Source: Chloroflexota bacterium (lineage in GTDB: Bacteria > Chloroflexota > Anaerolineae > Anaerolineales > Villigracilaceae). Taken from it: a DNA stretch of 64,000 nucleotides. Every line of letters begins with the position of its first letter. The stretch's first letter is position 1. The position numbers and the translations under genes were made by a program. Shown one piece after another: positions 33,370 through 62,702 of this stretch. The stretch covers positions 62,001 to 126,000 of the forward strand of contig JAJYLQ010000007.1 in assembly GCA_021787595.1 (NCBI GenBank). The letters run 5' to 3'. Under the pieces are notes generated by a model that was given only the letters and a program-made list of their open reading frames with translations, searched no databases and was not told the DNA's origin.

Positions 33370-33609
33370 TCAATCATCTTCCTGCTTTGGATCACCGTAT
33401 ATTCTCGCAACCGCGGCTTCGATCTCTTCGGCCGAATGTTTCTCGCACGCCACCAGCGGACGATGCGCGTTGGGGACGCGTTTGCCACCCGCGCTCATCA
33501 CCTTTTCGTCCATAAATCTTCCGCTGGCATCATATACAACGTAAAGCTGGTAAAGCTTTCCGCAAACGATGCAGCCGTGCATTTCACCTTTGGTGTGGTT
33601 TTCTGACAT
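33370..33609 (-). CDS. Small cysteine/histidine protein of unknown function
   Basis: A 79-residue protein from the ATG at 33609, which has AAGGAGACCCAA upstream. The sequence contains MHGCIVCGKLYQLYVVYD and later VACEKHSAEEIEAAV. The CxxC plus the distant C/H pair suggests a small zinc- or metal-binding fold. I do not recognise the family. It sits between the small membrane protein and the amtB leader, on the opposite strand to amtB. Confidence 0.7.
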   Translation of the reverse strand: MSENHTKGEMHGCIVCGKLYQLYVVYDASGRFMDEKVMSAGGKRVPNAHRPLVACEKHSAEEIEAAVARIYGDPKQEDD

Positions 33610-33711
33610 TTGGGTCTCCTTAATTCTCCAACTATACAATAAAACCCCCATTTATGTTGACGGGCTTGTTTCCCTGTGACGGATGGCAGTGTATCGGAAG
33701 AACCTCATCAC

Positions 33712-33739
33712 TTGACAGCGGGGTGGCGCGGCATACAAT
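33712..33739 (+). promoter_or_regulatory. Sigma-70-type promoter of the amtB leader
   Basis: TTGACA (33712-33717) and TACAAT (33734-33739) are separated by 16 bases. The first hexamer is the exact consensus and the second has one difference. Transcription would begin near 33746, leaving about 250 bases before the amtB start codon. Confidence 0.7.
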
Positions 33740-33745
33740 CAGCCT

Positions 33746-33837
33746 GTGCCCAGGATATTAATGCAGGCAAACAGGAACCGGGGATCGCTGGAATGAATCT
33801 TAATGGCAAAAGCGGTACCCTAAACTGGTTGCAACAA
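33746..33837 (+). ncRNA. Candidate structured leader (riboswitch-like) of amtB
   Basis: The region between the promoter and the leader terminator has no convincing reading frame and contains short complementary segments: CCTG-TGCC-CAGG, and GCCTG pairing with the later CAGGC. It also has unpaired purine-rich pieces such as GGCAAACAGGAACCGGGG and TGGCAAAAGCGG followed by CCCTAAAC. A few strings recall the c-di-GMP-I riboswitch core (GGCAAAC, GCAAAGC, CCTAA), but the tetraloop helix of that family is not apparent. I therefore leave the class open. The position suggests control of ammonium uptake by a small ligand or RNA-binding protein. Confidence 0.4.
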
Positions 33838-33881
33838 GGTGCTGGTCAGGCCCAAACGGGCAGGCCGGTGCCTAATTTTTT
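33838..33881 (+). terminator. Leader terminator (attenuator) upstream of amtB
   Basis: GGTGCTGGTC and GGCCGGTGCC form a ten-pair stem (with G-U pairs), extended by CCC / GGG around AAAC. It is followed by TAATTTTTTG. It lies 115 bases before the amtB ATG and after the promoter, so it would abort transcription inside the leader. Confidence 0.65.
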
Positions 33882-33996
33882 GTCTTTGTCAAGAATATGT
33901 CAAGAAGGAGGCGGAGTTATAAGCAGATATCAGCCGGTTTGTTTGTGATGAACTTGCATGTTTTCACATCACCCAATACTACAAGGAGAATATTCC

Positions 33997-35226
33997 ATGA
34001 ATAATATAGATACCGGAGCTACTGCCCTGGTACTGGTCAGCGCTGCGTTGGTCATGCTGATGACGCCGGGCCTGGCCTTCTTCTATGGCGGGCTGGTGCG
34101 CCGCAAAAATGTGTTGACCATCATGATGCAGAGCTTCGTGTCAATGGGCATTGTCACCATCATCTGGGTCTTTGGCGGATTCAGCCTGATGTATGGTAAA
34201 GACATTGGCGGTTTCATCGGGAATCCCTTCCAATATTTCGGCTTGCAGGGCGTGGCCTCCGCCACCCTGCAGGTTCCGGGTTCCACGCAGACGATGCCGC
34301 TCATGGCCTATTTCGTTTTCCAGGAGATGTTTGCGATCATTACCCCGGCCCTGATCACAGGCGCTTTTGCCGACCGGGTCAGCTTCAAAAGTTATTTGAT
34401 CTTTCTCGTCTTGTGGAGCGTTCTGGTTTATACACCCATGGCTCACTGGGCCTGGGGCGGCGGTTTCCTGGCGCAAATGGGATTCGCTGATTTTGCCGGA
34501 GGAATCGTCGTCCATACCAGCGCCGGATTCGCCGCGCTGGCCTCCATTCTGATCATCGGTAAACGTAAGATCAAGAAAGGCGAGAAGCTCGCGCCGCACA
34601 ATGTCACTTATGTCGCGCTCGGAGCGGCCCTGTTATGGTTTGGCTGGTTCGGCTTCAATGGCGGCAGTGCGCTGGGATCCAACGGATTGGCGGCGGTGGC
34701 CTTTGTCAACACCGATATTGCCGCTTCATTGGCGATGATCACCTGGATGATCATTGATTGGACGCGTGAAGGAAAGCCCAATATGGTTGGCGCGATGACC
34801 GGGGCAGTCGCTGGGCTTGTGACGATCACGCCCGCGGCCGGATACGTTCAGCCTTGGGCCGCGGCGGTGATTGGCATCATCTGTGCTTTTGTCTGTCACT
34901 GGGCGATCCAGCTTCGCGCCAAAATGGGCTGGGATGACGCGTTGGATGTCTGGGGAGTGCACGGCGTGGGCGGCGCGCTCGGTACAATCCTCGTTGGCGT
35001 CTTCGCGGGGGTTGCCGTAAACAACGTCAGCGGATTAATCGAAGGCAATGTTCACCAATTCCTGGTGCAGTTGCTGGGAGCCGGGTTGGCCATTGTCTAT
35101 TCATTTGTGCTGACCTATATCCTTCTGTGGCTGGTAAACTTGATCACACCGGTGCGTGTGTCTGAAGAAATTGAGATTACAGGACTGGATGAAGGGCTGT
35201 TTGGGGAAGAGGCTTACGTGGAATAA
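33997..35226 (+). CDS. amtB: Ammonium transporter
   Basis: A 409-residue protein with about eleven hydrophobic segments. MTPGLAFFYGGLVRRKNVL near the N-terminus, PMAHWAWGGGFLAQMGFADFAG with the first pore histidine (about 148) and DVWGVHGVGGALGTILVGVFA with the second (about 318) are diagnostic for Amt proteins. It imports ammonium/ammonia. The open frame reaches back to 33958, but the ATG at 33997 has AAGGAGAATATTCC upstream. No GlnK/PII gene follows, which is unusual because amtB and glnK are commonly linked. It is preceded by a leader with an internal terminator and followed by a strong terminator. Confidence 0.95.
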   Translation: MNNIDTGATALVLVSAALVMLMTPGLAFFYGGLVRRKNVLTIMMQSFVSMGIVTIIWVFGGFSLMYGKDIGGFIGNPFQYFGLQGVASATLQVPGSTQTMPLMAYFVFQEMFAIITPALITGAFADRVSFKSYLIFLVLWSVLVYTPMAHWAWGGGFLAQMGFADFAGGIVVHTSAGFAALASILIIGKRKIKKGEKLAPHNVTYVALGAALLWFGWFGFNGGSALGSNGLAAVAFVNTDIAASLAMITWMIIDWTREGKPNMVGAMTGAVAGLVTITPAAGYVQPWAAAVIGIICAFVCHWAIQLRAKMGWDDALDVWGVHGVGGALGTILVGVFAGVAVNNVSGLIEGNVHQFLVQLLGAGLAIVYSFVLTYILLWLVNLITPVRVSEEIEITGLDEGLFGEEAYVE

Positions 35227-35239
35227 GCGGAATATCCTG

Positions 35240-35286
35240 AACAAAAACACGGAGACTCAGGAAAGAGTGAGCCTCCGTGTTTTGTT
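35240..35286 (+). terminator. amtB terminator
   Basis: Long stem AACAAAAACACGGAGACTCA / TGAGCCTCCGTGTTTTGTT with few mismatches and a short loop, 13 bases after the amtB stop, ending in TTTTGTT. Confidence 0.9.
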
Positions 35287-62627: not shown

Positions 62628-62670
62628 TTGTGAGCGCGGAGAGGCTCGAACTCTCAACCAATGGCTTAAA
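62628..62670. repeat. Right copy of 43-bp direct repeat, inside the intact tRNA-Lys gene
   Basis: The same 43 bases in the functional tRNA gene. The 119 bases between the two copies hold no gene; they contain an inverted pair GTTTCGA / TCGAAAC and look like the residue of an excised element. Confidence 0.85.
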
Positions 62671-62702
62671 AGGCCACTGCTCTGCCATTGAGCTACGCGC
62701 CC
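62631..62702 (-). tRNA. tRNA-Lys (anticodon TTT)
   Basis: The minus strand folds into a full cloverleaf. The acceptor stem is GGGCGCG / CGCGCTC. The D arm is GCTC...GAGC, and the anticodon arm GTGGC-CTTTTAA-GCCAT has anticodon TTT. The T arm is GAGAG-TTCGAGC-CTCTC, with discriminator A. No CCA is encoded. The 3' half is duplicated 162 bases away. Confidence 0.95.

Follow-up and report, generated by a model that had tools for sequence, protein, structure and literature searches.

A promoter and an intrinsic terminator retained ahead of amtB in two species of Anaerolineae suggest premature transcription termination in the leader

The window, i.e., the whole stretch of 64,000 nucleotides analyzed here, belongs to a 4.08-Mb draft genome (99.6% complete) with Anaerolineae as its relatives. 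It contains an ammonium transporter gene, amtB, separated by 345 bases from a divergent upstream gene; a promoter and a hairpin followed by a T-tract both lie inside that interval. The features are listed below, with comparisons to L038, the ortholog from a second genome of the same genus.

33370..33651, minus strand: divergent upstream gene encoding a small protein (93 aa) that is conserved, has relatives in other genomes and is of unknown function
33712..33739, plus strand: sigma-70 type promoter TTGACA-16-TACAAT, 11/12 match, conserved in L038
33746..33837, plus strand: leader RNA before the terminator, with no conserved sequence and no unusual folding
33761..33796, plus strand: possible leader peptide (MQANRNRGSLE) with AGGA as Shine-Dalgarno-like sequence, unconserved in L038
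33838..33881, plus strand: predicted intrinsic terminator, GGTGCTGGTC...GGCCGGTGCC and then TTTTTT; rank 1/151, z 4.2 versus L038, 10/10 basal pairs kept
33983..33989, plus strand: Shine-Dalgarno sequence AAGGAGA of amtB, identified from the sequence and aligned with CAAGGAG in L038
33997..35226, plus strand: amtB, ammonium transporter (Ammonium_transp, PF00909, E 2.5e-124)

The upstream gene has relatives of 39-78% identity in 9 further genomes, which marks it as real. Because it is conserved and divergent, the terminator at 33838-33881 cannot belong to it; with such a neighbor, a plus-strand terminator serves no obvious purpose beyond ending transcripts that start at its own promoter. On the other side, directly 3' of amtB, lies a bidirectional terminator (35239-35283), a hairpin with T-tracts on both strands. 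It is followed on the opposite strand by a gene for a dinitrogenase iron-molybdenum cofactor family protein (PF02579; 35703-36131, minus strand). The only match of the window to Rfam at gathering threshold was a tRNA (62631-62702).

The promoter comprises a -35 element TTGACA (33712-33717) and a -10 element TACAAT (33734-33739) separated by 16 bases. In the 64 kb, it was the sole sigma-70 match of at least 11/12 (spacing 16-18, both strands). Relative to the amtB ATG at 33997, the -35 element starts 285 bases and the -10 element ends 257 bases upstream, and transcription is predicted to start at about 33746. Between 33882 and the start codon, no further promoter of at least 9/12 was found except one whose -10 element ends at 33991, i.e., six bases before the ATG; it overlaps the start and is too close to the amtB ATG. 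The terminator lies on the plus strand about 130-137 nt after the promoter. Its hairpin (33838-33872) has a basal stem of ten pairs, 33838-33847 with 33863-33872, topped by more G-C pairs, and the T-tract TTTTTT occupies 33876-33881. At -25.9 kcal/mol, this hairpin comes first in strength among 151 hairpin-plus-T-tract sites, a rank that applies to the 64-kb window only, and it scored z -3.7 against shuffles of itself. A looser consensus scan returned 3 sites for 2.9 expected, and by that scan alone the terminator is not separable from chance. The sequence-only reading had named both elements, a near-consensus promoter some 250 bases before amtB and, between the two, a ten-pair stem followed by six T residues; both were confirmed, the former as unique in the window and the latter as first in rank.

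This amtB was present in only two of the six genomes of the genus. The second genome, G003 (L005/L038; record PMLN01000292.1; 78% complete), comes from a fen-dwelling Anaerolineae bacterium. Its amtB is 92% identical to that of the window in amino acids and 80% in nucleotides; third codon positions are only 51% identical, indicating that unconstrained positions have drifted far. The gene upstream of amtB in L038 is a different one and has the same direction as amtB instead of being divergent, and the gene upstream of amtB in the window has its G003 relatives on other contigs. Comparison of the window with L038/L005 revealed only two clearly conserved noncoding blocks, the promoter, kept as cTTGACAg...cATACAATCA (z 6.3, none of 1000 shuffles as good), and the terminator, found at the corresponding place (z 4.2, again 0 of 1000). 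The stretch before the terminator gave z 0.37, with 373 of 1000 shuffles as good, and that after it was weakly alike (z 2.4), mostly in AGGAGGCG and the Shine-Dalgarno region. Right after the terminator, at 33887-33906, the window has two perfect TGTCAAGAA copies 11 bases apart that were not seen in L038. Each of the ten basal stem pairs is standard in the window and in L038, and five of them differ through one-sided change; between these two sequences, no two-sided compensatory change occurs among the ten pairs. This layout of promoter and terminator is common to two genomes only, the next closest amtB orthologs (70-82% identity) being without it. The two-species comparison favors selection on the terminator and counts against a conserved aptamer. 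The conservation or covariation among relatives on which the earlier proposal was to be judged was thus found for the terminator but not for the aptamer region (z 0.4) in the sole ortholog that shares the layout.

The RNA between promoter and terminator looked unremarkable. Between the predicted start and the terminator lie 92 nt with a folding energy of -21.3 kcal/mol, where shuffles average -20.7 (z -0.2), so the 'potential folding region' noted ahead of the terminator is not special; the corresponding part of the L038 leader also folded no better than shuffles (z -0.9). In prefix folds, part of the 5' arm of the terminator was sequestered in both species, through different pairings, and no antiterminator common to the window and L038 was seen. 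A DNA search with the leader yielded no second copy in this genome and two short matches in 60 relatives. One of these, of 35 bases, sits at the start of an unrelated reading frame in G059 and was taken as chance; the other, of 29 bases, falls at the amtB end of the query.

What does the terminator do? A promoter, a leader of about 92 nt and a terminator make up the layout expected if a metabolite riboswitch, known or new, controlled termination, but the other observations render this highly unlikely. The leader had no match at gathering threshold among 4227 Rfam families. Up to E = 10, it matched RAGATH-11, an IRES, a Yersinia sRNA and several miRNA and snoRNA families of eukaryotes, each at a score far short of the family's threshold, and GEMM-I, glnA and Downstream-peptide were absent from these matches. 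The earlier reading had noted a resemblance of some strings to the c-di-GMP-I core, short of a full match. The L038 leader likewise gave nothing credible at either setting. The pre-terminator leader is unconserved despite a 92% identical amtB and folds no better than shuffles, and the absence of a second copy, with only two matches of 29-35 bases in relatives, weighs in the same direction. No aptamer conserved across orthologous leaders was found in the one ortholog with the layout that was compared. A classical ligand-binding aptamer is not indicated, and the suggested new ligand class for nitrogen status is not supported, the would-be aptamer region being neither conserved nor unusual in folding. 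Control by translation of the leader, in which a ribosome on a short leader ORF would decide whether the terminator forms, also appears very improbable. The window does offer an ORF with an AGGA ribosome site (33761-33796), and an overlapping ATG ORF (33793-33948) has two Gln codons just before the terminator. Both species have a leader ORF that crosses the terminator, yet 58% of shuffles of the window leader and 39% of those of the L038 leader contain one as well. The small ORF preceded by a Shine-Dalgarno-like sequence is found in the window only, and the ORF of L038 is unrelated in sequence, with neither a Shine-Dalgarno sequence nor Gln codons before the terminator.

The chief rival is an sRNA gene upstream of a separately transcribed amtB: promoter and terminator would yield a free sRNA of about 135 nt, and amtB would be expressed mainly from a separate promoter downstream. 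An sRNA gene, too, would consist of a promoter and then a terminator, and L038 has a 10/12 promoter-like site 3' of its terminator, between it and amtB (2081-2108), that would bypass the terminator in that species. No such promoter was found in the window from 33882 to the start codon, except the one overlapping the start, and the body of the putative sRNA is unconserved between two species of one genus; we therefore consider this explanation unlikely. ANTAR proteins antiterminate the leaders of nitrogen genes (eut, nas, ami) and are predicted to do so for ammonium transporters; their target consists of two hairpins with A1/G4 hexaloops, the second overlapping the terminator (PMC3369931). Antitermination of this amtB leader by an ANTAR protein would follow a known mode of ammonium-transporter leader control (PMC3369931), and such a protein is encoded by six of six relatives from the order whose amtB leaders also bear a terminator but are of another kind. 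It is nonetheless already largely refuted and has next to no probability left. Neither this genome (99.6% complete) nor G003 (78% complete) yielded the domain, whereas the same search was positive in 54 of 121 Chloroflexota genomes, and a hexaloop hairpin with A1 and G4, let alone a pair of them, is in neither leader. PII-dependent control was rejected as well. The draft genome (G000; 99.6% complete), which encodes an ammonium transporter, had no match to PII (PF00543), and the search was positive in 13 of 14 control genomes. The remark that PII/glnK is not linked to this amtB was thus true, and the search detected no PII gene elsewhere in the draft genome either. We see a rather slim chance that a fast-evolving, genus-specific leader RNA or an antiterminator protein gates amtB by nitrogen status, which would be an undescribed control operating with neither PII nor ANTAR detected.

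Because the same-genus relative keeps both promoter and terminator although its upstream gene differs, premature termination within an amtB leader is likely and finds support in two species. On balance, we favor the reading in which the terminator is part of this leader and reduces or gates transcription of the gene. It most likely belongs to an ordinary attenuator and not to a new riboswitch, since the RNA between promoter and terminator bears no sign of a conserved metabolite sensor. What had been described as the layout of riboswitch or attenuator control therefore stands as a promoter and a premature terminator in the amtB leader, and not as a riboswitch. The promoter and the terminator occur in this order in the window and are retained with amtB, conserved together, in the second species. 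In the mechanism that we propose, amtB would be transcribed from the strong promoter at 33712-33739, and RNA polymerase would reach the intrinsic terminator about 130 nt downstream, so that only the read-through fraction would become amtB mRNA. If that fraction is fixed, the terminator, which is predicted to work in vivo, would act as a damper on a strong promoter; alternatively, read-through may be set by some factor that does not read conserved leader sequence. In either case, amtB expression is probably gated by early termination. A terminator-bearing leader kept in two species indicates where to look for amtB regulation, and it provides no support for a new riboswitch class.

Other lineages have other arrangements before amtB, and that of the window is probably one local solution among several. 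Seven orthologs of about 70-74% identity from sister genera (L118-L122, L023, L039) have no leader terminator. Some 110 bases ahead of amtB they carry the palindrome TACCTGAAATCAGGTA, or its variant TACCTGATTTTAGGTA in L121. For L023, the single case read completely, a divergent gene for a NarL/LuxR-like response regulator lies beside the palindrome, which in these genera probably serves as operator for a two-component system specific to nitrogen or to amtB. Regulation of amtB thus differs among closely related Anaerolineae, with a leader terminator here and a palindrome with a divergent response regulator there. Close to the amtB promoters of some other Anaerolineae (L009, L013, L007, L030, L032, L021) lie repeated palindromic strings, TACCCAAATGGGTA, ACCCATTTGGGTAA and ACCCATATGGGT among them, possible operators of some regulator. 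Among clostridial relatives (L044-L058, L060, L064-L067), a gene ending in a LuxR-type helix-turn-helix is often directly upstream of amtB, and repeated strings, for example TACAGTAAAA or GGGGTTTTGTGGTATTTCC, occupy the gap.

Five more distant amtB genes at the order level have a short leader in which a hairpin, GGC-CRYGAM-GCC, overlaps with a terminator immediately ahead of the gene. All five genomes, and a sixth whose terminator-like leader is without the hairpin, encode ANTAR proteins, several of them on the amtB contig; ANTAR-type amtB leaders are probably present in these lineages. The hairpin sites are in the leaders of L007, L008, L011, L029 and L031 and at 1500-1580 of L150. The element resembles the ANTAR element AGCAANGRRGCUY, save that loop position 1 is C where the latter has A, and is possibly a variant of the ANTAR target. 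In G051, the element and a terminator are found downstream of an ANTAR gene itself.

Among known systems, the glnA and Downstream-peptide riboswitches share with this leader a position before a nitrogen gene (glnA type), and the GEMM-I c-di-GMP riboswitch a likeness of short strings only; all three differ from it in that none gave a covariance-model match up to E = 10 and no conserved core was seen in the ortholog. ANTAR dual-hairpin leaders likewise have an intrinsic terminator between a promoter and a nitrogen gene, but in this case no ANTAR gene was found in the genome, and dual hairpins with A1/G4 hexaloops are absent from the leader. The sister genera have an orthologous amtB, but with a palindrome and no leader terminator at its promoter. 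The amtB leader has the anatomy of transcription attenuators in general, i.e., a strong promoter, a leader and an intrinsic terminator, the last of these conserved in a second species.
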